Shown here one piece after another: positions 15,339-48,468 of a DNA stretch of 64,000 bases. Below the pieces are notes generated by a model. It saw nothing but the letters and a program-made list of their open reading frames with translations. It was not told the origin of the DNA and ran no database searches. The position numbers and the translations under genes are program-made. Position 1 is the stretch's first letter; each line of letters opens with the position of its first letter. Origin of the DNA: an uncultured Porphyromonadaceae bacterium (GTDB taxonomy: Bacteria; Bacteroidota; Bacteroidia; Bacteroidales; Muribaculaceae); contig CANEHE010000002.1 in NCBI GenBank assembly GCA_947427285.1, positions 62,001-126,000 on the forward strand, read 5' to 3'.

Positions 15339-18300
15339 CTATCGGGCAAGAGAGATATTGCACGATATACCGTAGTTGGAATTTGATGTCGGATAGGAAG
15401 AGTTGCTTACAAGGGGCGTATTGACCTGATGATCGAAAAATGCGGAAAGGGTCACGCGCTTGCTCACCACATAACTTGCAGTAAAATTGATGGAAAGGGT
15501 CTGAGTTCCTGATGTCGCCTGTGTATACGCACTCTCTATACGACGGATAAGAGCCTGATTGGTTGCCCAGGAAAGATCAAAGTTGAGAGAAAGATCATTG
15601 TTTACACCCCCCTGTTTTCCTCCGAATTTAAGAACTTTGTTGAAGTTGGCTATTTTATATCCGGCCCCGACGGTAAGTTGCCTGCTGTTGGCCTCCACTA
15701 TCTGTCCTGCGGATGTATTAAGCGTGAGAGTCCGGGAGTCCCGATACTCGCAATTGAGCGAAAGATCGTTCTGAAGAGTAAGATTCACACCGATAAGAGG
15801 AGCAAACTTCTCTGTTATAGCCACAGATGTGATATTGTAAGGAGAAGAAGGAATGGGCATCTGTGTCTGCTCGTCAAGAATAAAACCACATTCTCCATTC
15901 ACTCCTATCCAATTAAGATAGCTACCGTAAGATCCTACGGAATATGTACACTGGTAGGCATGACTTACAGTGAACGTCTTGAACCATTTCTTCATATTGC
16001 CCATTTCCCGGAAGCCGTCATAAGTGATACGCCAGTTCGGACGCATTGAACCAAGACCTGGGAAGTGTTCAAGTTTGATAGTATTGATGTTCTGTCCGGA
16101 GTATGCCGCGATAAAAGCCGGAATGAGTACATCCGAACTTGTCGCAGAAGGAGAACCATTTTCCGGATTGTAAAAAGTCCCTGCGAGAGGATTCCCTTCC
16201 ATAAATCCTGTAGAAGGATAGGCCGTTCCGCGATATTGTGCCTCCACCCGTGCTGTTGCCACAGGAATATTCTCCAAGAATTTTGAGAATGCGGCCGAAG
16301 CATAGCCGTCATCTGCTTTACTATTTTTCAACGCAGTAGTAAATGCCCAATGTGTGCGGGTATATGATCCTGTGCGTGTAGTAGGCATATCCGAATACAT
16401 AAACTGCACCTGACGTGTACGATTATCTGTAAGATTCGAAGTAAGCAAAATCTTAAGACCCCGTATGGGTTCAAGAGTGAGTTCGAAATTAAACTCCGAA
16501 GTCTTGTTCCAGATGGCCGGAGACGTAAGGTCGTTTCCAGTCAGAAGCCAACCACGGTCCAAAGCTCTATCGACATAATTCTCATTGAAGAATCCGAAAG
16601 CAAAATCAAGACCTGGTGCCATCGGGCCGTAAGAACGTGTCTGGCCGAATGCATTACCGACATTAGGAGCAAACTGAGGAAGAGTCATCGAATGGGTGGA
16701 ACGCCAACGGAACGAGGCACTGCGAGGCATCATAAGGAAACGGACAGCATGATCCGCCACCTCCTTCCATATATTTTTTTTGTCAGCTTTCTTATCTTCG
16801 CGTACAGTCACTTTTATCTGTTGGGAGCCACGGGTAAGGATTTCCACGGTGTTGTCATCAACTACTTTCGTCTCAACCTTGAAAGGCTTGCTGCCTACCA
16901 TGGCGACAAGTTTTACCTTCTTTGTTTTCAAGTTATGCTTCACAAGTGTCGATGTATCTGGCGACAGAGTTATAGCCCGTTCAAACTTTCGGTCTTTGTT
17001 GTTCTTTTTGTCGTTGGTATTGTTCCGCAACCGGGAAGAAGCGGAAAAACGTCGGTTGACAGTCTGAAGATACTTTGATTTATTGAACAAAGTCTCAAAG
17101 TTGAGTCTGGCATCCGCATTCCAACTCGATTGATTCTGGATAGTATTACCCATATACAGGTCATCTACTGTAGCACCTTTATCCCAACGATACGTAGAAT
17201 TATATGTTACATTTCCGCTAAGATAATCCAGAAACGGGATGCGCGAGAAGGGAGCGCGATATGAAGCTGTAAATGTCTGATTATAATTCCATGGGGTTCC
17301 GAGATGACGGATAGAATTAAGCACCGTATCTTTCCAGTCACGATATTTGTCGGGGAAAAGACGTTTGTTGACAGCACCGATACTCTCTTCAATTCTGGCC
17401 ACAGTATTGGATGCAAAAGACAGATTTAGTGATTGTGTCAGGTTCCAGGTCAGATTAAGCTGACGATCCCACAGGAAATTCTTGCTTACCTGAACCGGCA
17501 GCTGGAAATCCACATCTACCTCACTACGTGTCTGCTGCTCATAATAGTAACGAGATATGTTGGTATAGAACGTCAGAGAATTGAACATCCAGCGCAGTCC
17601 CCAATCCTTCAAAAACTTCACCCCTTTGCCTTTCCCTTTAAGTTTTGAGAATGGCTTCCATTCCTTTATAAAGGGAGAATAGGAATACTGAAACGATCCG
17701 CGGTAATCGTTGGTATTTTCATATTCTGTAGTAGGGTCAACATTCTTCTGTCTGTTGAAAGAGAATGAGAGCTGGAAATTCGCCGGATCCCAAGGCATAG
17801 GATTTTTGCTTTTCACATCAAAGCGGAAATTACTGAGTGAGAAACTTTCCACACTGCGTGTAGTCACAGCATAATTTCTAATCGAATCTTTCTCATGCTT
17901 TGTTGTAGCCGCATCAAGAGCGTCTTTCAGAAGCATATCCTGATCAAGAGGATTGTATTTAGGGGTAATAGTCTCAGTAGATTTTGAATAATATACCGGT
18001 GCTGAAAGTTTAAGTTTCTCAGGAACGATTCGCCCGACATCTCCCTGCACTGCTACATTAAACTGTTTATAATCGTCAAGTCTTCTGGCTGACAGGCCCT
18101 GATCCACTCCTCCGAAACCAGCAGTTTCCAAATGACCGGAGAAATTGACGGTTGCGATATCCGAAAGAGCGAGATTCACATTTGCTTTGGCAGCCCAACC
18201 ACCACTTTCATTAAAATCTGTAACTTTAAGTTCATTGACCCATACACAGCCGTCCTTGACAGAGTTTGACTTGTTGCGTATGCCGATCAACATCACACGT

Positions 18301-21300
18301 ACGTCTGAAAGGGACGGATTTCCAAGAATGGATATTGTATTGTTTTCGTCGGAAGGATCACGACGCGAAAATACCTGTGCGAAACCCACCCCGGCAGTTC
18401 CGGTGCTCTTTTCCCGATTTCGTTCTGCCTTGAGATCTGTGAATGCCTCAAGCGAAAGATCAAGGAAATTAGAATAAGGCCATACAATCTGCCTGTCAGC
18501 AGAAGACAGATTGTAGTACCTGCCTGCAGGTGTCAACTCCAATGGTATCTCATATTCATAATAGTTGCTTTTAACATCCGACCCAAGTCGAATGAATAGA
18601 GCCAAATCTCCATTCTTAAGATTTGTTTTGTCATCAATAAGAGCTTCAGCATGATTCCACATCTGCAACCGACGATATACACGAAGATCAAGCTGTGTAT
18701 TCTTATATATGCCACGGGCATCACCCGGCTGAAGCCCCGATACAGTCATGGAAAGCGATTGCTCGTTAAGTTGTGTGGCCTGCGATTGTCCCGGATCTTG
18801 AATCCTGTTTACACCAGGGGGCAATACATAGTTGACAGGCGTCCGTCCGGAATTCTCCTCAATATTTACAATTGACATGTCAAGTTCTCCTTCGGCCGGA
18901 GAATCATTACGGTTGTTGAGATTGAATTTATAGTCGCGCCATTCACCGCGCACCAATTCAAGGGTAGCAAAACGCAGATGTGTTGTCTCCCGGAATCCGG
19001 TCATGAACATACGGGCAAAACGTATGGATGAGAAGTCGCTGATTCCCCCTATGACTTTATCAGGTTGGGAGAGGGGTATTTTAAACTGATACCACACGAC
19101 TGTTTTCGGACCAGCCGGAGTCGTTACCCGGCTTTCCTGTCTGTCCGATATGTAATTCTTTCCAACCTGAAGATCCTCGGGACGTATGGAAACCTTATAC
19201 TGATAGTATCTCTCATATTCGTTGAGAGTATTGTCCTGGTTTATATCCTCGACATCCGGCACAGAGCGTGCAGACTGATAATATGGATTATCACTCTGAT
19301 CGGGAGAAAGAGAGTTACCCTCCACTCCATTATAATGCTTGTAACGGTCGATAACCCCAGTCTGATGTTCGTCGTAATAGGGAGAACGGAAGAAATGATA
19401 ATTATCACCGGCGGGATCATTGAACGGCGAAAACGGATTGTCTTGCATCTCGGAAATAGTAGCTGCCGAAAGTTTAAGACGCAATTGGTCCAGATATGTC
19501 TGGTAGGACGGGAAATTGAATTCATCGGAGTTAGGAAGGCCGTCCAATCCCACATCCTGCATAGGACGTGCATTCTCCGAATTTTCAAAAGCGTATGTCA
19601 GAGAATTCTGACGACTTACGCGGCCCCATACGGTCTCGGATATGAAACGGGTGTCTCCATCAATGGGAATACCGTTTTCATAACTTTTCATTCCATCCTT
19701 GAGAATATCCTCAGAAATGTCACCAAAATTGAAATATAGATCACCACCCTCGGTGTTCGGATTTTTTTCATCCAGAAACGGATCAAGCATCCAGAACTGG
19801 AGATACTCCACATTTGAATTCTCAAAATTGGTATTGTCAATCTTACGCATTATACCTCCCCAGCGTTTTTCCGGAAAGAGAAGCGAACCATCCGGTCCGA
19901 TATTTTCAGCGTCCAGATTATATGGACCTCGCTCCTTGGGGAAAAATGACAGATTGAGTGTCTGGATATAATCTGCCTCACCGTAAGACAGATCGCGGTT
20001 AGGAAATATCTCGTTTATGGTGACTTCCCGGACATAAGGATTCGAAAGTTGTTCTGCATCATTTTTCAGATATCCGGGAATCATCGATGAATTCTTCTGG
20101 GTAAACATGCGGTCGATGTAATACCAGGCAAGAAGTGCTCGATTCTTTCCATAATCCACATTGTCAGAAAGTTGAGCTTCGGGGAATAATGCCGTATTAC
20201 TTTTTTCTGCAGGAGTGGAGGCAAGAAACCACGAGTATGGCGACCTGAGGTCAACACCGGTCTGTGTAGTCTCAAAATCGTCGATATAACTTGAACCTTT
20301 GTTTGACCCGCTTTTCTGTTTATGAGGAACAAGCTGAGCAAATTCCGCCGTAACATTGATTGAAGAGGGGGCAGTAGCGTTGATAGTAGGCACTTTGTTG
20401 AGAAGATTGGTGAGCCACATAAACTGTTTGTTCCAGCTCAGGTTCAATCCCCACATAGTATTATTAATCACCTCATCGCCTATATTTACCTTTTCAGTCA
20501 ACGCCTTCTCGGAAAAATGGAGCAAGGTTCCTCCTATGGTAAGGTCTTTATTGAAACGGTATTGCGCATCAAGTCCAAGGAGTGTCTTTCTCTGCATTGA
20601 GAACAGAGACTGATTTTCCAGAGTGACACTTACGTTAGTACCAGCATCAATTATACTTTGATTGGTGATAGTAACTATACCCATTGAGTAATCCACCGTA
20701 TAGTCGCTGTTCTCCACCAGAGTGACACCACCGGCTGTCACTACAACCGACCCTCGGGGCACATTCATGGCATTGAGTCTGATCGTAGCCCCCGAGGAAG
20801 CCTGATACTCACCCGAGAGGGTGAATTTATTCTTATCAGCGAATTGTCGTGCCACAACCAGTGTGGAGTCGTACAATTCTTTATATACATACGGGGCGGC
20901 TATGGCCGGATCTCCTATCTTACGTTCAAGATTGGATCCGAATGGTTCCACTACAGGAAAGATAATCTTGCCGGAAGATGACTGAACAGTATAACCTTCC
21001 ACATAGTCAAACAGACCGTCGGAATGAGATTCCTGGTTGGAATCAAGTCTGTCGAGATTCATCACTTGCAGAAGAGGCTGATTGGTAATCGCTCCTACAG
21101 GAAGATAATTTATCTCCGTTCCGGTCGTATCGCTTAAGAACTTTATATTGAGTTTGAAATTCTTGCTCTGAAGTTGATATGCCCCTAAAGAATATACATT
21201 CTTCATCATCAGTCTCCACATCGGAAGCCGTGTGGCGATAGTAGTGCCACGAAGCATCTTCAGATAAAGAGACTGATCCGTGCTGGTCACATCTGATGAA

Positions 21301-22796
21301 AATTCACCTACCTGATACACTTTCCCCTGATAAGTGTATTCGTATGCCACGGCAAGCACCTCGTCTGTATTCAATGCCGCTTTAAGAGAGATATATCCGA
21401 GAGTGGAGTTCAATGTGTACTCCGAAGAATTGAGAAGGCGTGCACTCTCCACTTTCTCAAAATCCTGACCTCCTCGTATTCCATAAGCCTGCAGCGGTTC
21501 CAGAGCCTGTGTGACCTGGTTTATATTCCGGGCACCAGGATATTGTTCTTTTACAACAGAAAGCAAATTGTTTGACAGGTTGGAGGGAACAGGCACACCG
21601 GCATTAGGTTGCCAATAATTGTTGGCAAGACGTGTGTTTTCGCCCAGATCCATGAAACCGACAAAATTCCGGCTCTCATTGAAATTGCTCTGTTTGTTTG
21701 TCACCCAGACTTCAATACGGGTTATATTTATTCCGGATGAGACATGCGGTAGTTTCGATGCGAATTCATCATAATTCTCATAAAAATATTGAGCCAGAAA
21801 GAAATGTCGGTTCGCATCATAATTATCTGCCTTTATGGAATATTTTGTAGTCTGGACCCCTCCCTGGGTAGTGATTGTCTGCGATTCACTGTTTTGCTGC
21901 GATATCAAACCGGTAAGAGTCAGCTTGCCGAACTGAAGTTTGGCTTTGGCACCAAACAATGCTGTCCCTCCGCGAATCAAAGAAGAACCTGTGGTCATCG
22001 ACACATTGCCGGCCTCAATATTCTTAATGATCTCGTCTTCCTTCCCTTCATAACTTAACTTCATGTTCTTGGAATCGAAATCAAACGTCGCGTCAGTGTT
22101 ATAGCTCATGTTGAACTTGAGCTTATCTCCGACAGAAGCATTGATGTTGGCTTGGATTTTCTGGTCGAAATCAAAAAAGGTCTTACGGCGTGATTTCAAG
22201 GAAAGAGCCGGATTGTCTGTCTTGTTGCTCTTTATCCCCATCGACAATTGAATGGAGCCTGACGTTGTCAGACGCACACCTCCCGGTCCGAAAACTTTCT
22301 CCAATGGACCAAGAGCGAAATTCATATCAAAGATATTGAACGCCTCCTTCTCTTTCTTTTCGAAAATCTCAGAGTTCTTGGACTGAAAATAGTCAAACAT
22401 CTCCTGACGGTTGACCATTTCATGATATTTGGAAGCCGACATGAGATATGGAGTCACAATTTCTCTGTCCCCAAGTCTGGTACGTATCCAATACATTCCA
22501 GTGGCCGGATCATATTCAGCCTGTGTGGTTATGTTCTGTGGATCCCGGAGGTCGGCAACAAATTCACGGCCAACATAGTCATCATAGCCTTGCGGCACAG
22601 TGGTCTGTACCGGCGATGGCATGAGAATGCTGTCAGGAATATGGGTCCCGTCAAGATACGGAGTAGGAGGGGGTGGAGGGGGAGATGGTTGCGTCACGAC
22701 AGATTGAGCCGGACTGAGAAGCGCACCTCCCACGGTCCCGCCTACGGCTGCAGCCGCAATTGCGGCCATACGGCAAATCTTTCCTTTTAGCTTCAT
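15339..22796 (-). CDS. sprA: T9SS outer-membrane translocon protein SprA (Sov)
   Basis: About 2485 residues, the size expected for SprA/Sov, the giant barrel that forms the protein-conducting pore of the type IX secretion system. I start at ATG 22796, which gives a signal peptide ending near LLSPAQS; the longer reading from 22838 uses TTG and overlaps the ruvA stop. After a proline-rich stretch come the SprA N-terminal features (FNIFDMNFALGPLEKVFGP, GVRLTTSGSIQLSMG, KLKFNMSYNTDATFDFD) repeated in the middle of the protein. A long series of amphipathic strands runs to a C-terminal aromatic-rich end (YGISCNISLAR). The frame is intact. It is downstream of ruvA and upstream of a protease lipoprotein. 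The two adhesin-like genes at 41.9-48.5 kb are plausible cargo. Confidence 0.95.
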   Translation of the reverse strand: MKLKGKICRMAAIAAAAVGGTVGGALLSPAQSVVTQPSPPPPPPTPYLDGTHIPDSILMPSPVQTTVPQGYDDYVGREFVADLRDPQNITTQAEYDPATGMYWIRTRLGDREIVTPYLMSASKYHEMVNRQEMFDYFQSKNSEIFEKKEKEAFNIFDMNFALGPLEKVFGPGGVRLTTSGSIQLSMGIKSNKTDNPALSLKSRRKTFFDFDQKIQANINASVGDKLKFNMSYNTDATFDFDSKNMKLSYEGKEDEIIKNIEAGNVSMTTGSSLIRGGTALFGAKAKLQFGKLTLTGLISQQNSESQTITTQGGVQTTKYSIKADNYDANRHFFLAQYFYENYDEFASKLPHVSSGINITRIEVWVTNKQSNFNESRNFVGFMDLGENTRLANNYWQPNAGVPVPSNLSNNLLSVVKEQYPGARNINQVTQALEPLQAYGIRGGQDFEKVESARLLNSSEYTLNSTLGYISLKAALNTDEVLAVAYEYTYQGKVYQVGEFSSDVTSTDQSLYLKMLRGTTIATRLPMWRLMMKNVYSLGAYQLQSKNFKLNIKFLSDTTGTEINYLPVGAITNQPLLQVMNLDRLDSNQESHSDGLFDYVEGYTVQSSSGKIIFPVVEPFGSNLERKIGDPAIAAPYVYKELYDSTLVVARQFADKNKFTLSGEYQASSGATIRLNAMNVPRGSVVVTAGGVTLVENSDYTVDYSMGIVTITNQSIIDAGTNVSVTLENQSLFSMQRKTLLGLDAQYRFNKDLTIGGTLLHFSEKALTEKVNIGDEVINNTMWGLNLSWNKQFMWLTNLLNKVPTINATAPSSINVTAEFAQLVPHKQKSGSNKGSSYIDDFETTQTGVDLRSPYSWFLASTPAEKSNTALFPEAQLSDNVDYGKNRALLAWYYIDRMFTQKNSSMIPGYLKNDAEQLSNPYVREVTINEIFPNRDLSYGEADYIQTLNLSFFPKERGPYNLDAENIGPDGSLLFPEKRWGGIMRKIDNTNFENSNVEYLQFWMLDPFLDEKNPNTEGGDLYFNFGDISEDILKDGMKSYENGIPIDGDTRFISETVWGRVSRQNSLTYAFENSENARPMQDVGLDGLPNSDEFNFPSYQTYLDQLRLKLSAATISEMQDNPFSPFNDPAGDNYHFFRSPYYDEHQTGVIDRYKHYNGVEGNSLSPDQSDNPYYQSARSVPDVEDINQDNTLNEYERYYQYKVSIRPEDLQVGKNYISDRQESRVTTPAGPKTVVWYQFKIPLSQPDKVIGGISDFSSIRFARMFMTGFRETTHLRFATLELVRGEWRDYKFNLNNRNDSPAEGELDMSIVNIEENSGRTPVNYVLPPGVNRIQDPGQSQATQLNEQSLSMTVSGLQPGDARGIYKNTQLDLRVYRRLQMWNHAEALIDDKTNLKNGDLALFIRLGSDVKSNYYEYEIPLELTPAGRYYNLSSADRQIVWPYSNFLDLSLEAFTDLKAERNREKSTGTAGVGFAQVFSRRDPSDENNTISILGNPSLSDVRVMLIGIRNKSNSVKDGCVWVNELKVTDFNESGGWAAKANVNLALSDIATVNFSGHLETAGFGGVDQGLSARRLDDYKQFNVAVQGDVGRIVPEKLKLSAPVYYSKSTETITPKYNPLDQDMLLKDALDAATTKHEKDSIRNYAVTTRSVESFSLSNFRFDVKSKNPMPWDPANFQLSFSFNRQKNVDPTTEYENTNDYRGSFQYSYSPFIKEWKPFSKLKGKGKGVKFLKDWGLRWMFNSLTFYTNISRYYYEQQTRSEVDVDFQLPVQVSKNFLWDRQLNLTWNLTQSLNLSFASNTVARIEESIGAVNKRLFPDKYRDWKDTVLNSIRHLGTPWNYNQTFTASYRAPFSRIPFLDYLSGNVTYNSTYRWDKGATVDDLYMGNTIQNQSSWNADARLNFETLFNKSKYLQTVNRRFSASSRLRNNTNDKKNNKDRKFERAITLSPDTSTLVKHNLKTKKVKLVAMVGSKPFKVETKVVDDNTVEILTRGSQQIKVTVREDKKADKKNIWKEVADHAVRFLMMPRSASFRWRSTHSMTLPQFAPNVGNAFGQTRSYGPMAPGLDFAFGFFNENYVDRALDRGWLLTGNDLTSPAIWNKTSEFNFELTLEPIRGLKILLTSNLTDNRTRQVQFMYSDMPTTRTGSYTRTHWAFTTALKNSKADDGYASAAFSKFLENIPVATARVEAQYRGTAYPSTGFMEGNPLAGTFYNPENGSPSATSSDVLIPAFIAAYSGQNINTIKLEHFPGLGSMRPNWRITYDGFREMGNMKKWFKTFTVSHAYQCTYSVGSYGSYLNWIGVNGECGFILDEQTQMPIPSSPYNITSVAITEKFAPLIGVNLTLQNDLSLNCEYRDSRTLTLNTSAGQIVEANSRQLTVGAGYKIANFNKVLKFGGKQGGVNNDLSLNFDLSWATNQALIRRIESAYTQATSGTQTLSINFTASYVVSKRVTLSAFFDHQVNTPLVSNSSYPTSNSNYGISCNISLAR

Positions 22797-22834
22797 GGAC
22801 GATAAACCTGTCGGCTTAAACCATAATACATCGG

Positions 22835-23416
22835 TCAAAGCACTTTAAGAGCTTGTTTAATAGCCTCTTCTACAGTCATTGACGAATCTTGAACAAACAA
22901 TTTATCAAGAGCCTTTCTACTCTGCGGAGCACTAAAACCAAGCATCAGAAGAGCAGACAGCGAGTCATTGTAAGCCTGTGAGGAAACCGATATACTTGAA
23001 AGTAACGGCTGTTTACCACTGTTTATTTTATCTCTAAGATCCACTATTATTCTTTGGGCGGTCTTACCTCCGATCCCCTTTACAGCCTTAAGTGCCAAAT
23101 CCGATCCTGTGGCAATGGCATCGGTAAGCTGAGATAAAGTCATTGCTGAAAGAATGAGACGCGCAGTATTTGGTCCGACACCGCTCACTCCTATCAAAAG
23201 ACAAAACATCTCTCGACATTCCTTCTCAAGAAATCCATAGAGAAGATGTGAGTCATCTCGTATCGCTTCATGTATATATAACTTTGTCGACTCTTGCCCT
23301 TGAAGAGAAGAATAATCCAACAATGTGATATTAATCTCATAACCAACACCATGGCAATCAACCACTGCTGTGGTAGGATTAAGGTCCGCCACACGACCCG
23401 ATATATAGTCAATCAT
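22835..23416 (-). CDS. ruvA: Holliday junction ATP-dependent helicase subunit RuvA
   Basis: 193 residues, full length. Domain I is an OB fold (MIDYISGRVADLNPTTAVVD). Domain II has two helix-hairpin-helix motifs, LIGVSGVGPNTARLIL and LKAVKGIGGKTAQRIIVDL. Domain III is a C-terminal UBA-like domain (ALLMLGFSAPQSRKAL) that contacts RuvB. The RuvA tetramer holds the four-way junction while RuvB drives branch migration. The neighbouring ruvB is not in the window. sprA begins 38 nt after the stop codon. Confidence 0.96.
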   Translation of the reverse strand: MIDYISGRVADLNPTTAVVDCHGVGYEINITLLDYSSLQGQESTKLYIHEAIRDDSHLLYGFLEKECREMFCLLIGVSGVGPNTARLILSAMTLSQLTDAIATGSDLALKAVKGIGGKTAQRIIVDLRDKINSGKQPLLSSISVSSQAYNDSLSALLMLGFSAPQSRKALDKLFVQDSSMTVEEAIKQALKVL

Positions 23417-39233: not shown

Positions 39234-41678
39234 ATGAGACTATCTGAACTAAAGCCGGGACAGACCGGCGTAATAACCAAAATCCTCGGACACGGGGCAT
39301 TCCGGAAAAGAGTTATGGAGATGGGGTTTGTGAAGGGGCGACCCGTCACTGCCGTATTGAATGCCCCTCTTCAGGATCCTGTGAAATACTCCATAATGGA
39401 CTATGAGGTTTCTTTACGCCGTGCCGAAAGTGCACTGATAGAAATCGTAGACGTAAAGGAATGGGAAGAACGTCAGAATACTTCCGAACATGCCGATACC
39501 GCCTCTCACGATCCCGACAATCTTACGCCCATAAGAAAAGACCGTGTGATCAACGTTGCACTTATCGGGAATCCTAATTGCGGAAAGACTTCACTTTTCA
39601 ACATCGTTTCCGGAGCCCATGAGCATGTGGGCAATTATGCAGGTGTCACTGTGGGGGCCAAAGAAGGAACTCTCAGCTACAAGGGATACAAATTCCATAT
39701 CGTAGACCTTCCTGGCACTTATTCTCTCTCTGCCTACTCTCCGGAAGAATTGTATGTGATGCGTTATCTGCGCGAAGAGACTCCGGACGTGATAGTCAAC
39801 GTTGTGGTAGCTTCCAATCTGGAGCGAAATCTGTATCTCACATCAGAACTGATCGACATGAACAGAAGCATGGTAATCGATCTCAATATGTTCGATGAAC
39901 TGAAACGATCGAATACCCAATTGGACTATTCCACGCTCGGGAAAATGCTCGGTGTGCCGATCGTGCCGACAACCGCCTCAACCGGTGAAGGGGTAAAAAA
40001 ACTACTGGATACAGTAATAGAGGTCTATGAACTTAAGAATTCGGATGTACGGCACATACACGTCAAAATGCGTCCGGAGATCGAATGCGCTGTCAATCGT
40101 CTCAAAGACGCCATCAAAAGTGACCACACTGTCGGACATCATTTCTCTCCACGCTATCTGGCCATAAAGTTTCTTGAAGGAGACCCCGAAGTTGAACGTA
40201 TGCTGTCCGGATGTGCGGATTTTCAGAAATGGAAAAGTATGCGTGATTCAGAAGCCAGTCACGTCAAGAATGAGCTTGGGGAAGACATCTCATCCGCAAT
40301 CGCCGGAGAGAAATATGGTTTTATCCGGGGAGCACTGGCCGAGACGATGGAAAACAACGAAAAACAGGAGGAAAAATACACAAGAATCATTGATTCCTTT
40401 GTCACCAACAAACTCTTTGGATTCCCCATTTTCATTCTGGTGATGTGGTTTATATTCTGGGCTACATTTCAAGTAGGTTCATATCCCATGGAATGGATAG
40501 AATCTGGCGTATCATGGTTGTCTGAACTCATAGGAGGAAACATGCATGACGGTCCCTTCAAGGATCTGCTTCTCGACGGCATACTCGGAGGGGTGGGAGG
40601 TGTCATTGTCTTCTTGCCGAACATCCTGATTTTATATTTCTTCATCTCCTTCATGGAAGATTCAGGTTATATGGCCCGGGTTGCTTTCATCATGGACAAG
40701 CTGATGCACAGAATGGGGTTGCATGGAAAATCATTCATTCCCCTTGTGATGGGATTCGGTTGCAATGTACCGGCAATAATGTCAACCCGTATCATCGAAA
40801 GTAAATCATCTCGGCTTATTACCATCTTGATCAATCCGTTTATGAGCTGTTCGGCAAGAATCCCGATTTACGTTCTTCTGGTGGGAGCATTCTTTCCCAA
40901 ACACGGCTCACTCATATTCACCGGACTTTATATACTTGGAATAGCGATTGCCGTGCTTACGGCATGGATGCTGCGCAAATTCTGGTTCAAGAAAGATGAG
41001 ACTCCTTTTGTGATGGAACTTCCTCCATATCGGATTCCTACAGCAAAAGCCACCATACGCAACATGTGGGCCAAAGCCAAACAGTATCTCCGCAAAATGG
41101 GAGGTCTGATTCTTGTGGCTTCTATTATCATCTGGGCTCTCTCTTATTTCCCGCAACGCACACCTGAAGAAGTACCAGCCACATACATGACTACTGCTCT
41201 GGCAGATATTGAAACAGTCGGTTACGGAGACAATACTCCCGAAGAACAGATGGAACTGGTCACAAAAGAATACCAACAGGAACACTCCATTCTCGGAAAT
41301 ATCGGCCAATTCTGCGAGCCTGTAGTGCGACCCTTGGGATTCGACTGGAAAGTAAGCGTATCACTATTGGCTGGAGCCGCTGCAAAAGAGGTTGTGGTAT
41401 CCACTCTCGGTGTCCTGTATGTGGGTGATGATGATGCCGACATGCTTGCGGAAAAACTCAAAACACCGTCACACGTCACAGGAGAAGTTCCGTTCACACC
41501 ATTGAAAGCCCTGGTATTCATGATCTTCGTGCTTATATATTTCCCATGTATAGCCACTATCGCAGCCATAGTGAAAGAGACTGGATCATGGAAATACGGA
41601 CTCTTCTCTATCCTATACAACACAGGACTCGCCTGGATTATCTCATTCATAGTATATCGTATCGGACTTTTGTTCTGA
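39234..41678 (+). CDS. feoB: Ferrous iron transporter FeoB with fused N-terminal FeoA domain
   Basis: 814 residues. Residues 1-75 are a FeoA (SH3-like) domain (MRLSELKPGQTGVITKI...RKRVMEMGFVKGRPV). A linker follows, then the FeoB G domain from about 105: G1 ALIGNPNCGKTSLFN, switch GNYAGVTVG, G3 DLPGTYSLSAYSPEE. The membrane part contains the Gate motifs (MVMGFGCNVPAIMSTR, NPFMSCSARIPIYVLL) and about eight to ten helices, ending in IVYRIGLLF. FeoB imports Fe(II) under anoxic conditions. The FeoA-FeoB fusion is common in Bacteroidetes. Two tandem terminators separate it from the adhesin-like genes. Confidence 0.96.
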   Translation: MRLSELKPGQTGVITKILGHGAFRKRVMEMGFVKGRPVTAVLNAPLQDPVKYSIMDYEVSLRRAESALIEIVDVKEWEERQNTSEHADTASHDPDNLTPIRKDRVINVALIGNPNCGKTSLFNIVSGAHEHVGNYAGVTVGAKEGTLSYKGYKFHIVDLPGTYSLSAYSPEELYVMRYLREETPDVIVNVVVASNLERNLYLTSELIDMNRSMVIDLNMFDELKRSNTQLDYSTLGKMLGVPIVPTTASTGEGVKKLLDTVIEVYELKNSDVRHIHVKMRPEIECAVNRLKDAIKSDHTVGHHFSPRYLAIKFLEGDPEVERMLSGCADFQKWKSMRDSEASHVKNELGEDISSAIAGEKYGFIRGALAETMENNEKQEEKYTRIIDSFVTNKLFGFPIFILVMWFIFWATFQVGSYPMEWIESGVSWLSELIGGNMHDGPFKDLLLDGILGGVGGVIVFLPNILILYFFISFMEDSGYMARVAFIMDKLMHRMGLHGKSFIPLVMGFGCNVPAIMSTRIIESKSSRLITILINPFMSCSARIPIYVLLVGAFFPKHGSLIFTGLYILGIAIAVLTAWMLRKFWFKKDETPFVMELPPYRIPTAKATIRNMWAKAKQYLRKMGGLILVASIIIWALSYFPQRTPEEVPATYMTTALADIETVGYGDNTPEEQMELVTKEYQQEHSILGNIGQFCEPVVRPLGFDWKVSVSLLAGAAAKEVVVSTLGVLYVGDDDADMLAEKLKTPSHVTGEVPFTPLKALVFMIFVLIYFPCIATIAAIVKETGSWKYGLFSILYNTGLAWIISFIVYRIGLLF

Positions 41679-41682
41679 CATT

Positions 41683-41730
41683 AGAGGCTGTTTAAAAATG
41701 ACTGTTAAATTTGATTTTTAAACAGCCTCT
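41683..41730 (+). terminator. Terminator after feoAB (first of two)
   Basis: A perfect 17-bp inverted repeat (41683-41699 with 41714-41730), starting 5 nt after the stop codon. Confidence 0.8.
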
Positions 41731-41773: not shown

Positions 41774-41813
41774 AATTTGCCGCAGGCTTAAAAAAGCCCG
41801 CGGCAAATTTTAT
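41774..41813 (+). terminator. Second hairpin terminator after feoAB
   Basis: A 16-nt inverted repeat with one mismatch (41774-41789 with 41794-41809), GC-rich in its upper half and followed by TTTT-like sequence. Confidence 0.7.
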
Positions 41814-41821
41814 ATAATATA

Positions 41822-41853
41822 TTTGGTCATTCACAAATTTTTGCTAAATTTGC
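41822..41853 (+). promoter_or_regulatory. Promoter of the adhesin-like gene
   Basis: TTTG at 41822-41825, a 19-nt spacer, and TAAATTTGC at 41845-41853. The start near 41858 is about 37 nt before ATG 41895 but about 230 nt before the large ORF, supporting 41895 as the true gene start. Confidence 0.75.
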
Positions 41854-41894: not shown

Positions 41895-42074
41895 ATGAAT
41901 CTATTATCTACTGCGTTAATAACGGCGAGCGTTGTCTTTTCGACAGTCGTACCAGTTTACGCACAAAACACCTATCCGGTAAGAAATGCCGATGTAGGGG
42001 GGGGTAAAATCCTCATCTACAACAATAAGACTATCCCCCAGACAGGCTTCGGAAGAATACAACAACTTCTTTAG
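41895..42074 (+). CDS. Signal-peptide leader ORF, out of frame with the adhesin body
   Basis: 59 codons. The first ~24 residues are a clear Sec signal peptide (MNLLSTALITASVVFS, then a cleavage region VYAQ). The frame continues through the 8-G tract (codons GGG GGG GGT) and stops at TAG 42072-42074. If the tract had 7 G (or 10) the frame would run on through the downstream 1430-residue ORF, giving a 1493-residue exported protein for 7 G. The downstream ORF has no signal peptide of its own. I read this as the true N-terminus of the adhesin gene, separated by a one-base slip. Confidence 0.75.
   Translation: MNLLSTALITASVVFSTVVPVYAQNTYPVRNADVGGGKILIYNNKTIPQTGFGRIQQLL
41997..42004 (+). repeat. 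Poly-G tract (8 G), candidate phase-variation switch
   Basis: Eight consecutive G, the longest G/C homopolymer I noticed in the window. It lies just after the signal peptide, and its length decides whether the signal peptide is joined to the adhesin body (7 G = ON, 8 G = OFF). A homopolymer miscount in the assembly would look the same. Confidence 0.7.
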
Positions 42075-42084
42075 CCGACGAAAG

Positions 42085-45000
42085 ATGACTCCATCCGGAT
42101 TAATGCGTGCACCAGAACGACTACATGTACCGTCGATAGCGGAAGCAAGACTCGCTCAACGGGTGGCAGCATCAAAAGTCAAACTCAGAGGTGCCATGAC
42201 CGACAACTCCCTCTGGTATGACTTGTCGGGAGAAAAACCTTATGGAATATACGAACTATCGACTACTCCGGGGACAGCGGAATATAAGATAGTGAAAGCC
42301 GACCAACGTTTCTACGTGATGGATGCGGTCTATACAGGCGATAAACTGTGGATATCACATGCGATCGAAGATCCGAGTACATTACAGGTAAAATCCATGA
42401 CATACTACACTTTCAATCCTGTCACATGGGAGGTATTGAAAGAACAGGTCGGTGACAAAGAACTCTCGCTCATGACATCCACCTGGAGTCCGCAAGACGA
42501 AGTGGCATATTGTTCATGGTACGGATCCTCAGGTTTCACTTTCGGATGTCTGGCAATAGAAGATGGTCAGTTGATGAGCATCGGCAAACTTGACAAGCGT
42601 CTGGTAGCGATGGCCGCACACAATGACGGCACTCTCTACGGCATAGATGAATCAGGAGCCCTTGTGACCCTGAACAAACAGACCGGCAAAGTTCTGAAAA
42701 CAATCGGCAATACCGGTATCGTGTCCTACTGGCGCACATCGGCAGCGATTGATTCTCAAAACAACATAATGTATTACATAGACTGCGGCTCATCCAAAAG
42801 CATACTTTACGCCGTAGATCTTGAAACAGCAGTTGCCACCAAAGTTTATGATTTTGCCAATTCGGAACAACTCATCGGTCTATATGTAGTAGTCGACGAT
42901 ACCCCCGCAACCGTTCCGGCAGTTCCTACTGACCTCACACTGTCATTTGAGGGTGCCTCTCTTTTCGGGTCAATAAGTTTTGCAGTCCCGTCCACATTCT
43001 ACGACGGTTCAACCGCTTCGGGTGATGTCACCTATTCAGTCGTAGTTGACGAAGAAAGCCCATTGACAGGCAGTGCCACTTGGGGACAGCGATGCACTGT
43101 GCCGGTAACAGTAAGTTCTGCAGGTTCGCATCAATTTACAGTCAAACTCGTCAATACTACGGGAAACAGCCCCGAAGCACGGATCTCCAGCTGGATCGGA
43201 CCGGACGCACCGGCTGCTGTAACAGGGGCTTCGGCTACATACGCCAACGGCAAATTCACAATCAAATGGGATGCTCCTACCGGAGGTGCCAATGGCGGAA
43301 ACATCGACCTTTCACAGCTTCGTTACAAAGTGGTCCGCACACCAGGTGACGTTACAGTAGAATCCGCGACATCACTTACCCAGATCACCGATGAAGTATC
43401 TGAGCCTGTCAATGAAATCATAGGTTATACCTATACTATCACTCCGGTATGTGGAGAAAGTATAGGGGAATCAGTGACTACTGCCAAAAAGTCTATCGGA
43501 TATTTTATCCCTCCCTACAGCAACGACTTCGCCACTTCTTCAAAGACCGCCGGTTACAGTGTGGTCGACGGGAATAAAGACGGTAAGAAATGGGGTTATA
43601 ATTCAGCATCCAAAGCGATGAGAATCCAGTATAATTCTTCCAAGGATATGGATGACTGGGTATTCACGCCTGCACTGCAACTTGAGGCCGGACGCAACTA
43701 TACATTCTCTTTCAAGGCCCGGGCACACAATAATAGCGATGCCGAACGCGTCGAGGCTGCCATAACTACTGGCACATCCGCATCATCTGTTGTAGAGAAG
43801 ATTATCTCAGCCACAGATATCACCTCCAAAGAATGGGTCACTCTCTCCGGCTCTTTCATACCTACTGTTTCGGGACGGTACCGTTTTGCTCTCCACGCGA
43901 TCAGCCCTAAGAATAGTTACTATCTGTACGCCACCGATATTGAGGTAAGTGCGGGTGCAGGGACTGGTGCTCCGGCAGCTGTAAGCGATTTCACCGTGAC
44001 ACCTGCGGAAGACGGATCACTCAAGACTTCAATATCCATGCGCACTCCATCGACCGATGTAAGCGGCGCACCTATATCATCAATAGAAAAAATAGAACTT
44101 CTGCGCAACGGCGTATTGTTGGAGACATTCCCCGCTCCTGCGGTGAACACTGTGATCACCCACACTGACAATGAAGCTCCGGCAGGCAGTGTAGTCTACA
44201 GTGCGATCGCATACAATGCGGCCGGTGCCGGTGCATCCGCCCAGGCAAGTGTATTCGTAGGTTTCGCCGCTCCAACCGCCCCGACCGAAATATCGGCCCG
44301 CATAGGAGACAATACAGGTAAAGCGGTCATCAGATGGAAGGCTCCGGAAACAGACATCAACGGACGGAAACTTACCTCGGAAAATGTAACCTACAGCATC
44401 CTCCGCAAAATCGGTGACAAGACCACAACTATAAAGACCGGTCTGACAGAATGCACATTCTCGGATCAGGCCGTAGCCGCAGATGCTGATCAGGATTTTA
44501 TCATCTACGGTGTATCCGCTCAGACCACAGGCGGTTCAAGCGATGCGGTATCGACACAGCTCATACCGCTCGGCAAACCTTATGCAACACCTTTCCGCGA
44601 GTCATTCGCCAACGGTACCATATCAAGCATCTGGGGTCTGGACAGCAGTGTTCCGACAGCTGGATGGCTTCTTGGTCAGGATTCTTCAATAGACAAAATC
44701 AATTCCGAAGACAATGACAATGGACTTGCCATAATGGAAGCCATGACCAAAGGCTCCTCGGCAACTCTATATTCCGGTTCAATAGCGATCCCGACAGAAG
44801 GAAACCCGATATTATGTTTCTCATATTTCAACCATGACTCACACAACACACTTGACGTGCTTGTAGTCGAGACTGGTGAAACTACCGGCCAAAAACTCAC
44901 CACTGTCACACTCAATCCGAATACACCGGAAGGATGGGTGAACGTACCCCTTGATCTGAGTGCATATAAAGGCAAGAACATTCAGCTGTACTTTACAGCC

Positions 45001-46377
45001 ACAGTGGTCAACACCACGATATTCGTACTTGACAATATCCGTGTGGAATGCCGCCTGGACAATGACCTGGCAATACGCGGAATCTCCATGCCGGCACGGG
45101 TAGCCGTGGGAAGTGACTACGAAATAAACGTGGCATTTGAAAACAAGGGTCTCAAAACCGCTTCCGGTTATATTGTGGATCTCATTCTCAACGGTGAGAC
45201 AGTCGACTCTAAATCCGGTCAGGAAATCGCTCCGGCCGTTGCCTCCTCAATGGCTTTCAGCCGCCGTATGCTTCCGGTGGACGCAGAAACATTCAAATAT
45301 GAAGTTGAGATCAAATATGCCGCCGATATGAATCCAGCCGACAACCATTCGGAAGCATACACCATTCGTCGTGTGACACCCGACTTCCCAGTACCGGCAA
45401 CACCGACAGCTACCGAGACAGACAATGGGGTAGAGCTGACCTGGACAGAACCGGATCTTACCTTGACAGAGATGCAGCCTGTATGCGACGATGCAGAGGA
45501 CTACACCGCATTCTCAACCGGTCTGGCAGGTTCAGTAGTTTTTGACGATCACATCGGAGACTGGACAATGATCGACTACGACGGAGTAGTACCTTTCGCC
45601 ATAACAAATGAAGGTAAGAAAGTGGAGTTCCCGAATTCAGGACGTCCCATAGGCTTCATGGTATTTGATTCGTCAATAATGAATCTTCAGGAATGGAATG
45701 CACATAGTGGCAAACAGATGTTCGTGAGCTTCGCTTCTGGATATGCTCCGAATGATGATTGGATGATATCGCCTATGCTTCCTGGCACTGCCCAGACAGT
45801 CAAATTCTGGGCACGCTCCCTTACGACACAATATGGCGCGGATTCATTCCAGTTCCTGTATTCCACTACCGACACGAAACTCAGCTCGTTTACACGTGTA
45901 GAGACCGTAGCTGAAGTTCCTGCGGAATGGAAAGAATATAGTTTCCAGATTCCGGAAGGTGCACGCTGGTTTGCCATCCGTTGTACATCCGACCAGACGT
46001 TCGCATTCTTCGTGGACGACATCACCTATACTCCTGCCCATCCCGCAGATGGACTTAATCTGACCGGGTATAATCTCTATCGCAATGGTAAGCCTTTGAA
46101 CGAAAGCGTACTTGCAGTAAAATCGTTTGTTGACCATTTACTTGAAGATGGAGATTACAAATATCAGGTCACAGCCGTATACAATAAAGGTGAATCGGCA
46201 CTTTCCGCACCTGCCTCTGTAAAATTCTCCGGTATAGAAAGTATCCTTGTCGAAGGTAAAATCGCAGATGTATATGGTGTCGACGGAATCCTGATTATCC
46301 GTAATGCATCTGCCAATGACATCAAGAGACTCCCACGCGGCATATACATAATTGACGGGAAGAAAATACGGATATAA
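42085..46377 (+). CDS. Large adhesin-like T9SS cargo protein (body, frame open from 41998)
   Basis: 1430 residues from the first ATG; no signal peptide in this frame, although the frame is open back to 41998. The N-terminal ~40-290 is propeller-like (repeated Y-x-I-D, LYAVDLETAVATKVYDF). Then come fibronectin-III-like modules (AAVTGASATYANGKFTIKWDAP) and three choice-of-anchor-J / cleaved-adhesin-like domains (about 475-625, 850-990, 1140-1315; each has D-D-W or similar and ends in FVLDNIRVE or FFVDDITYT). A CARDB-like module sits near 1000-1090. The C-terminus (VYGVDGILII...LPRGIYIIDGKKIRI) resembles a T9SS type A sorting domain. A surface or secreted adhesin is inferred. The domain style recalls the Porphyromonas HagA/gingipain adhesins. 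Confidence 0.82.
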   Translation: MTPSGLMRAPERLHVPSIAEARLAQRVAASKVKLRGAMTDNSLWYDLSGEKPYGIYELSTTPGTAEYKIVKADQRFYVMDAVYTGDKLWISHAIEDPSTLQVKSMTYYTFNPVTWEVLKEQVGDKELSLMTSTWSPQDEVAYCSWYGSSGFTFGCLAIEDGQLMSIGKLDKRLVAMAAHNDGTLYGIDESGALVTLNKQTGKVLKTIGNTGIVSYWRTSAAIDSQNNIMYYIDCGSSKSILYAVDLETAVATKVYDFANSEQLIGLYVVVDDTPATVPAVPTDLTLSFEGASLFGSISFAVPSTFYDGSTASGDVTYSVVVDEESPLTGSATWGQRCTVPVTVSSAGSHQFTVKLVNTTGNSPEARISSWIGPDAPAAVTGASATYANGKFTIKWDAPTGGANGGNIDLSQLRYKVVRTPGDVTVESATSLTQITDEVSEPVNEIIGYTYTITPVCGESIGESVTTAKKSIGYFIPPYSNDFATSSKTAGYSVVDGNKDGKKWGYNSASKAMRIQYNSSKDMDDWVFTPALQLEAGRNYTFSFKARAHNNSDAERVEAAITTGTSASSVVEKIISATDITSKEWVTLSGSFIPTVSGRYRFALHAISPKNSYYLYATDIEVSAGAGTGAPAAVSDFTVTPAEDGSLKTSISMRTPSTDVSGAPISSIEKIELLRNGVLLETFPAPAVNTVITHTDNEAPAGSVVYSAIAYNAAGAGASAQASVFVGFAAPTAPTEISARIGDNTGKAVIRWKAPETDINGRKLTSENVTYSILRKIGDKTTTIKTGLTECTFSDQAVAADADQDFIIYGVSAQTTGGSSDAVSTQLIPLGKPYATPFRESFANGTISSIWGLDSSVPTAGWLLGQDSSIDKINSEDNDNGLAIMEAMTKGSSATLYSGSIAIPTEGNPILCFSYFNHDSHNTLDVLVVETGETTGQKLTTVTLNPNTPEGWVNVPLDLSAYKGKNIQLYFTATVVNTTIFVLDNIRVECRLDNDLAIRGISMPARVAVGSDYEINVAFENKGLKTASGYIVDLILNGETVDSKSGQEIAPAVASSMAFSRRMLPVDAETFKYEVEIKYAADMNPADNHSEAYTIRRVTPDFPVPATPTATETDNGVELTWTEPDLTLTEMQPVCDDAEDYTAFSTGLAGSVVFDDHIGDWTMIDYDGVVPFAITNEGKKVEFPNSGRPIGFMVFDSSIMNLQEWNAHSGKQMFVSFASGYAPNDDWMISPMLPGTAQTVKFWARSLTTQYGADSFQFLYSTTDTKLSSFTRVETVAEVPAEWKEYSFQIPEGARWFAIRCTSDQTFAFFVDDITYTPAHPADGLNLTGYNLYRNGKPLNESVLAVKSFVDHLLEDGDYKYQVTAVYNKGESALSAPASVKFSGIESILVEGKIADVYGVDGILIIRNASANDIKRLPRGIYIIDGKKIRI

Positions 46378-46473: not shown

Positions 46474-48468
46474 ATGAAAAGATTTCTATTTTCCGGCATT
46501 GCAGCGGCAATACTCGTGTCATCTGCATTTGCCGCCGGACCTACCGGAATTGCAAATGTGATCGGAGCCAAATCATGGGAAAGTCAGCAGACCCCTCCAT
46601 ACGGTATGTATTCCTTTTCCATGGATGTCAACCCGGACGTAAAACTCGTTTCAGACAAAGTCGTCCCCGGCAATTTCGGCGCAGTATATGTCGATGGCCG
46701 CTACTTTGTGATAGAAGGAATCGCGACATCCGCATCCTCTTTTATCACCAACTACATCTATGATGCAGAAACCTGGTCAAAAATCACCGATTTCCGGGGA
46801 GAAAACATTACGGCATTTGACATGGCATGGGACGAGACAACAGGAAATGTCTACGGATACTTCCATAACTTCGACACCAATGCTGAATTTTTCGGTACAA
46901 TCGACATCAATACAGGAAAGACAACCCGTATCTCATCACTTCCTTTTGTCGCATACGGCCTCGCCTGCGATGTTGACGGCAGACTCTATGCAATTGACAA
47001 AGAGGGCAAACTATATTCAATAAATAAAACAACCGGTTCTTCAACTCCAATCGGATCCTCAGGCTGTTCAAGCAAGTGGACCACATCCGGTGCCATAGAT
47101 TCATCCACACGCACATTCTATTATGCCTGTTGCAATGACTCCGAGACCATCCTTTACGGTATAAACCTTGATACTGCCGTTGCTACACGTATAGCAGAAA
47201 TACCGGACAACATGGAAATGATAGGCCTTTATTTCCCAGAGCCGTCGGCACTTCCCAAAGCACCTAAAATAGCAGAAAACCTATCGTTCGACTTCACAGG
47301 TGCAGCTCTTTCAGGCAACTTCCTGTTTACAATCCCATCCACTCTCAACGATGGATCCGCTGCTTCAGGAGAAGTTGATTATACAGCGATTATCAACGGC
47401 GAGACCCTCAAGACCGGAAAGGCACAATACGGCACTACCGTTTCATTACCTCTGACACGACAGGAAGCTGGAGAATGCGAGGCTACAGTACTTCTGAAAA
47501 ATACTGTAGGATCAGCACCCACAGCACGTTTCAAAGCATGGATAGGACAGGATGTCCCAGCTCCGGTAGGCAAGATTGAAATTGTATACGACGGCAACGG
47601 ATCATTCTCTATCAGTTGGCCAGAAGCCAGAGCCTTGCATGGCGGATGGTTCGATCCATCTACAGTGACTTACAATGTGGTGCGCTACAGCAGTGAAAGC
47701 ACTACACCGACACGTTTTGACGGACAAACCACAAATTCCTTTACCGACAAGGTTTCACTCCCATACGAGGATGAATATGCCACCTACCATTATGATGTGG
47801 CAGCTGTATTCGGAACAGAAGTATCATCATATACATCTTCTGAATTCTATACCATAGGGAGTAGAACTCCTCCTTTCACAGAACAGTTCAACGCACGTTA
47901 CGAACTCGGCAAATTCACAATCCTTGAAGGCGAGAAAAAAGACTATGAGCGTTGGAACTACAGCAGTACCGACAAGGCCGCCACAGTATCGACCAATACT
48001 TCCATCGGTGCGGATGACTATCTACTCCTTCCTCCATTGACACTTGAGAACGGAATGGAATACGAAATCTCTTTTGACGTCAAAGGGAAATATTCTTCCG
48101 ACACAGAACGTTTCGAAGTACTTGCCGGTCAATCACCGACTGTTGATGCACTTACTGAAAAGATTCTTACCCCGACAGAGTTTAAAGGGACTGCTTACAG
48201 CAACTACAAAATGCAATTCGCACCCAATGCTTCTGGCACGTATTTCATTGCAATACATGCCATGAGCGATCCAAACAAGGGAGCCATAACTGTAGACAAC
48301 ATCAAAGTAGGTGGAGGTGTCCAGACAGGTGTGGATCAGATTGAAACAGAAGCCGAAGGCAATCCTGTATACTTCACTCTGCAAGGCATACGTATCGACC
48401 GTCCAGCTTCAGGCTCCATCTGCATAGAACGCCGTGGCAGCAAAGTCCGCAAGGTCATTATACATTGA
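46474..48468 (+). CDS. Secreted T9SS cargo protein, shorter paralogue of the adhesin
   Basis: 664 residues with an intact signal peptide (ending SSAFAAG). It mirrors the first half of the preceding protein: a propeller-like N-terminal domain (about 40-260, LYSINKTTGSSTPIG, LYGINLDTAVATRIAEI), an Ig/FN3-like pair (SFDFTGAALSGNFLFTIPST, PVGKIEIVYDGNGSFSISWPE), and one choice-of-anchor-J-like domain (about 465-620, DDYLLLPPLTL, ITVDNIKVGGG). The last ~35 residues (YFTLQGIRIDRP...SKVRKVIIH) resemble the T9SS C-terminal tails common in Prevotella-type genomes. It is intact, with no homopolymer slip at its start. Function is unknown; surface adhesion or glycan binding is an inference. Confidence 0.85.
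   Translation: MKRFLFSGIAAAILVSSAFAAGPTGIANVIGAKSWESQQTPPYGMYSFSMDVNPDVKLVSDKVVPGNFGAVYVDGRYFVIEGIATSASSFITNYIYDAETWSKITDFRGENITAFDMAWDETTGNVYGYFHNFDTNAEFFGTIDINTGKTTRISSLPFVAYGLACDVDGRLYAIDKEGKLYSINKTTGSSTPIGSSGCSSKWTTSGAIDSSTRTFYYACCNDSETILYGINLDTAVATRIAEIPDNMEMIGLYFPEPSALPKAPKIAENLSFDFTGAALSGNFLFTIPSTLNDGSAASGEVDYTAIINGETLKTGKAQYGTTVSLPLTRQEAGECEATVLLKNTVGSAPTARFKAWIGQDVPAPVGKIEIVYDGNGSFSISWPEARALHGGWFDPSTVTYNVVRYSSESTTPTRFDGQTTNSFTDKVSLPYEDEYATYHYDVAAVFGTEVSSYTSSEFYTIGSRTPPFTEQFNARYELGKFTILEGEKKDYERWNYSSTDKAATVSTNTSIGADDYLLLPPLTLENGMEYEISFDVKGKYSSDTERFEVLAGQSPTVDALTEKILTPTEFKGTAYSNYKMQFAPNASGTYFIAIHAMSDPNKGAITVDNIKVGGGVQTGVDQIETEAEGNPVYFTLQGIRIDRPASGSICIERRGSKVRKVIIH

Follow-up and report, generated by a model that had tools for sequence, protein, structure and literature searches.

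The window—the whole 64-kb stretch of DNA analysed here—contains a putative surface-protein gene that is split at a homopolymeric G tract and lies downstream of a FeoA-FeoB gene. The features to which we refer are the following:

15339 to 22838, reverse strand: SprA/Sov, the T9SS outer-membrane translocon (2674 bits, model positions 3–2317 of 2319)
39234 to 41678, forward strand: FeoA-FeoB gene, upstream of the split gene (domain search, FeoB comparison)
41822 to 41852, forward strand: promoter-like element TTTG-N19-TAAATTTG, read directly in the sequence
41895 to 42074, forward strand: 59-codon ORF, a signal peptide plus about 22 codons past the tract, ending at TAG 42072–42074 (ORF reading)
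41997 to 42004, forward strand: G8 tract, the sole G or C run of at least 7 in the 64-kb window
41998 to 46377, forward strand: body frame, stop-free over 1459 codons, with its first ATG at 42085 and no signal peptide
42005 to 42084, forward strand: stretch from the tract to the first body ATG (body frame aligned with relatives)
44719 to 45048, forward strand: MAM-like domain PF00629 (domain search; 27.3 bits against a cut-off of 26.4)
45061 to 45270, forward strand: CARDB domain PF07705 (domain search)
45697 to 46029, forward strand: choice-of-anchor J, the best of three stretches matching NF038128 (E 7e-35 for the protein)
46474 to 48468, forward strand: shorter member of the same family adjoining the split gene, 32% identical over the matched part, start MKRFLFSGIAAAILVSSAFAA, frame open

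The G8 tract at 41997–42004, the ATG at 41895, the in-frame stop at 42072 and the body frame open from 41998, as given in the preliminary description, were all present. A promoter had been claimed upstream of ATG 41895, and we found a promoter-like element there, composed of TTTG (41822–41825), 19 nt and TAAATTTG (41845–41852), which we take to match the Bacteroidetes −33/−7 consensus. The signal peptide, delimited by eye as MNLLSTALITASVVFSTVVPVYA/Q, had been called good; this holds for its hydrophobic core but not for its n-region, which contains neither Lys nor Arg. A TAG (41995–41997) immediately precedes the opening of the body frame at 41998, and the joined reading of 1493 codons was reproduced, by arithmetic only, as 34 codons (41895–41996) plus the 1459 of the body. 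Because only nine distinct G/C tracts of at least 8 occur genome-wide in 2,376,681 bases (this one included), a 65-nt interval—set by us to run from the signal peptide's end as far as the conserved body segment—would hold one by chance with P ~2e-4.

Two near-perfect inverted repeats, at 41683–41730 and 41774–41809 (17 nt, 100%, and 16 nt, 94%), lie in the gap that separates feoB from the split gene; weaker repeats (82–100%, 11–17 nt) flank the promoter-like element. ON/OFF surface structures of gut Bacteroidales vary by DNA inversion, as described in passages of PMC12632263 and PMC11868660. The window gene differs from these systems in having a homopolymer in its coding sequence, and the inverted repeats that flank its promoter-like element are AT-rich and imperfect; inversion may occur at this element.

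The host was placed by its FeoB, whose best match, at 84% identity, comes from ‘Muribaculaceae bacterium isolate A17’ (an MGBC contig name, from the mouse-gut catalogue); the next match, at 75%, is labelled Bacteroides sp., and several of those after it are labelled Muribaculaceae. The host is thus probably an uncultured gut commensal of the Muribaculaceae, and it is on this comparison that the label Muribaculaceae for the same-family genomes rests. The host encodes a T9SS: in addition to SprA (match at C2:77351–84553, within the window ORF 15339–22838; 0 of 14 control genomes matching), its genome yielded 21 matches to the sorting-domain model TIGR04183, of which 17 exceeded the cut-off; among the controls, 2 of 14 genomes matched. 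The split protein had been described as a T9SS-type adhesin. To a status as T9SS cargo TIGR04183 lends no support, even though the host has SprA: its C terminus gave no match at E ≤ 1, and among ten family C termini tested (that of the split protein included) three matched, one above the cut-off. By eye only, the C-terminal end GIYIIDGKK resembles a T9SS sorting domain. The body itself falls into the choice-of-anchor J family (NF038128, 120.6 bits against a cut-off of 30, in three stretches), and we predict a secreted, multi-domain surface protein, exported by Sec and then possibly by the T9SS. Given that neither TIGR04183 nor any solved structure (at E ≤ 0.1) matched the split protein, an adhesin function is one that we infer. 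A search of genome contigs for named relatives of the body returned none.

To trace the gene's ancestry, we searched 297 family genomes at E ≤ 1e-200 and obtained matches in 18, the own genome included. The best foreign orthologues, in G228 (L168, 43% identity) and G182 (L169, 44%), carry signal peptide and body within one ORF. N termini were viewed at 58 family loci, five of which were left uncounted (the window's own, three gene pieces and one locus open at a contig end); in 51 of the remaining 53 relatives, all with a closed N terminus, the ORF that encodes the body itself starts like a signal peptide. The two misses are L017 in G023, itself a broken gene with an internal TAG, and L022, whose start resembles a signal peptide by eye. 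The one-ORF orthologues and these relatives thus argue that the two pieces are a single ancestral ORF of signal peptide and body, broken at or near the G8 tract.

Where exactly the frame breaks was approached by aligning the 42005–42084 stretch with 18 relatives, few of which gave significant alignments. In the body frame, it aligns with the orthologue L169 and the own paralogue L032 (P ~0.01 each) and with L033 (P 0.02), but with the orthologue L168 only at P 0.2; the other frame aligns with L009 (P < 0.01) and matches none of L169, L032, L033 and L168. Codon usage in frame 0 is coding-like to ~42070 and does not place the frame switch. With P values so mixed and codon usage uninformative, these alignments localise the break to the tract interval with modest rather than sharp precision, and it arose most simply by slippage. 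ATG 42085 is unlikely to be the true gene start, as alignment to one orthologue and one paralogue extends upstream of it in this frame and no signal peptide begins at 42085.

A check of the tract in related genomes had been proposed: signal peptide and body are joined in both orthologues, and the G tract is missing from both, the 5′ regions examined holding no G run of at least 5 (and one C5, in G228). Across the 57 other family loci, only two have a G/C tract of at least 7 in the ORF (L013, C8; L049, C7), each in an open frame; the C8 of L013 (G032:C6, a congener) lies ~35 codons past the likely start. Among the 30 named FeoB loci listed, out of 80 searched, none had an orthologue beside feoB, although several of these 30 end shortly after that gene; L081 has a partial match at 26%, on the opposite strand. 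Neither the locus nor the tract flanks matched viral contigs (0 matches).

Tentatively, and at somewhat less than an even chance, we read the locus as a reversible slippage switch placed between signal peptide and body. One ancestral surface-protein gene would lie out of frame at G8; replication slippage would alter tract length by single bases, with ON being a length that joins signal peptide to body and OFF the frames that stop soon past the tract. Cells would alternate between the two, and the assembled genome would represent an OFF length. Slippage would then have made the break and could also undo it, both lengths would be present in the population, and selection would favour switching of the putative adhesin. 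The body is stop-free with its domains kept, and the promoter-like element and signal peptide are retained, arguing that the break is recent or reversible. Genes on C42 (G9) and C58 (G7) also appear split at G tracts, and among five promoter tracts of the same genome whose 3′ flanks are almost identical, two measure G6 (C4, C19) and three G7 (C7, C18, C22), so that G-tract length changes in this lineage. Against a switch stand the two tract-free orthologues, the open frames around most coding G7 tracts and the fact that the locus is known from one genome only. Of the earlier proposal of a contingency locus, single-ORF ancestry and, on modest evidence, a break in the tract interval stood; the tract is not conserved in orthologues or relatives.

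Slippage in G/C tracts close to the 5′ end of surface-protein genes had been named as a classic ON/OFF mechanism; a G-tract switch of this kind between signal peptide and body has been measured in Bifidobacterium breve, according to passages of PMC9187656. There, the sortase-pilus genes bbr_0113a/b and bbr_1889a/b of strain UCC2003 have an intragenic G tract between ORFs, and length heterogeneity was determined by maximum depth sequencing, also in mice. These pilin genes are the closest known system: they share with the window gene the order of signal-peptide ORF, G tract and long body ORF, a body ORF without a usable start, and a gut commensal as host. In B. breve, however, the tracts recur in the genus, whereas the window gene is known from one genome, has no conserved tract and belongs to a different surface system.

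A plain recent pseudogene is quite possible too, if doubtful: a one-off slippage would have inactivated a gene that the cell can spare, its paralogue family being redundant and quick to turn over, and nothing would select for reversion. The body gives 28 tblastn matches in its own genome (itself and several part-gene matches included), so losing one copy would probably be cheap. The C34 paralogue (L036/L041; G000:C34:14682–18618) is frameshifted into two pieces, and where they meet there is no G/C tract, showing that ordinary decay also occurs; the internal TAG of L017 and the tract-free orthologues point the same way. Passages of PMC7168839 offer a parallel in Campylobacter autotransporters, with a poly-G tract in the ORF of capD and in the promoter of capC, and lineage-specific decay beside such tracts. 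As at our locus, surface-protein genes there carry poly-G in the ORF or upstream, and family members decay; in Campylobacter, many strains were compared, and promoter tract length did not explain inactivation. What a pseudogene accounts for less well is the lack of any other damage to the body frame, the signal peptide or the promoter-like element.

We classified all 38 distinct G tracts of at least 7 (G7–G9) in the genome as intergenic (20), coding (17) or ambiguous (one, L161); 20 of 38 are thus intergenic, against a window that is ~92% coding. Three of the 17 coding tracts lie in broken genes (1 of 14 G7, 1 of 2 G8 and the single G9), as expected from slippage and equally from sequencing error. 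At the genome's only G9 (L057; G000:C42:15673–15681), a gene for a SAM methyltransferase appears to be interrupted close to motif I: its downstream part is recognised by Methyltransf_11 only from model position 8 on, and motif I, located by eye, lies upstream in another frame. A GLUG-like surface gene with only weak domain matches (L164; G000:C58:6597–6603) seems to change frame at a G7 and looks further decayed. In a sugar-transferase-like gene, named by eye (L151; G000:C14:31291–31297), a G7 that leaves the frame open lies near codon 16 and is a candidate slippage site.

A homopolymer error in sequencing or assembly would leave the real gene intact. This draft genome of 69 contigs is probably a MAG, and its only G9 also breaks a gene, both of which speak for an error; on the other side, the frame is long and open around 13 of the 14 G7 tracts and one of the two G8 tracts in coding sequence. 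Four contigs end beside near-identical repeats, which suggests short reads, a kind of data presumably less prone to such errors. We consider an error unlikely. It is very improbable that the gene works as it stands through recoding, in which slippage at the G run, during transcription or translation, would yield some full-length protein. The G8 run can pair with a C5 run ~31–35 nt downstream (41999–42039), a fold equalled by 1 of 200 shuffles (z −3.1), but pairing between neighbouring G and C runs is trivial, the tract is not kept in the two orthologues and we know of no case of recoding on a G run in Bacteroidetes.

Many of the intergenic tracts share a layout, consisting of a G run, usually TAA or TAT, and then TAnnTTTG. 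In the own genome, a pattern of G6 or longer, 15–24 nt and TAnnTTTG returned 19 rows, corresponding to 14 distinct sites (3 G8, 7 G7, 4 G6), and its reverse returned none. Examples have the box at 15–21 nt (L051, L052, L054, L139, L144, L146, L155, L242, L243) or at 9–10 nt (L147, L148, L154, L159). The version with G7 or longer gave 55 matches against 5 for the control in 36 congeners, and 6 against 6 in 24 genomes from other families of the same order, overlapping windows in longer tracts being counted more than once. A stricter form, G7-TAA-N12–21-TAnnTTTG, was present in 139 of the 198 genomes of the family, counting the own, which span 25 of 30 genera; its reversed control was present in 3 of 198. 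Spacing among the first 51 matches listed was 17–19 nt in 39, including 18–19 nt in 36. Tracts with the layout measure G6–G9, and the G10–G11 tracts of congeners lack it.

The window's G8 is not a member, as no TAnnTTTG follows within 15–24 nt and, by eye, no TTAAC boxes precede it. At some own-genome promoters (L050, L052, L054, L144, L153, L156, L242, L243, L252), a strong inverted repeat with arms of 10–18 nt, of a sequence that differs per promoter, ends 2–11 nt upstream of the tract. In 9 of 25 own rows such repeats were stronger than in any of 60 shuffles, and in relatives 1 of 28 rows reached P ≤ 0.02; we therefore rejected them as a general feature. Relatives seem, by eye, to carry repeated TTAAC boxes instead.

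Genes behind the poly-G tracts were scored for signal-peptide-like starts by one crude rule. Such starts were found at 13 of 15 own loci and, among 23 congener loci (5 without a gene in range), at 14 of the 18 with one. Window genes gave 14 of 35, and with the two sets combined the difference has P 4e-4. When L050 and L158, which have no TAnnTTTG, were excluded, the own set stood at 11 of 13 (P 0.006). This set omits the contig-end sites L143, L153, L156 and L252, the sites with no same-strand gene in range or with divergent genes only (L053, L055, L140, L157 and L255), and the ambiguous L161. The control comprises the 35 window genes only, with four window genes serving as part, and the base rate is therefore rough. 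Named domains were recognised in 6 of 12 proteins scanned: BspA-like LRR_5 (four), an M6 peptidase and an outer-membrane barrel.

The layout could represent a class of promoters that vary in phase; alternatively, the G run could simply be the form taken by a fixed operator or sigma element. Its conserved position is predicted by both; that tract length varies between copies permits the former. Among the PMC literature matches listed, which cover few subscription papers and preprints and are weak evidence, there was no report of poly-G promoters or homopolymer phase variation in Muribaculaceae. A broader proposal, which we regard as somewhat unlikely, is that Muribaculaceae use poly-G slippage family-wide to diversify their secreted surface: promoter tracts of G6–G9, mostly 18–19 nt before the −7 box, would tune or switch many signal-peptide genes, and a few coding tracts, the window's included, would add full ON/OFF switches.

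The split gene at a slippage-prone tract is genuine, and it would join a known type of switch if it does switch. Provided that tract length varies within the population, the locus would turn a surface protein ON and OFF by slippage, in a gut family most of which is uncultured. A stronger lead comes from the promoter-type tracts, which are family-wide and, where tested, positioned before secreted-protein genes. Should the family-wide reading be true, simple-sequence phase variation would operate in an order for which review passages describe DNA inversion.
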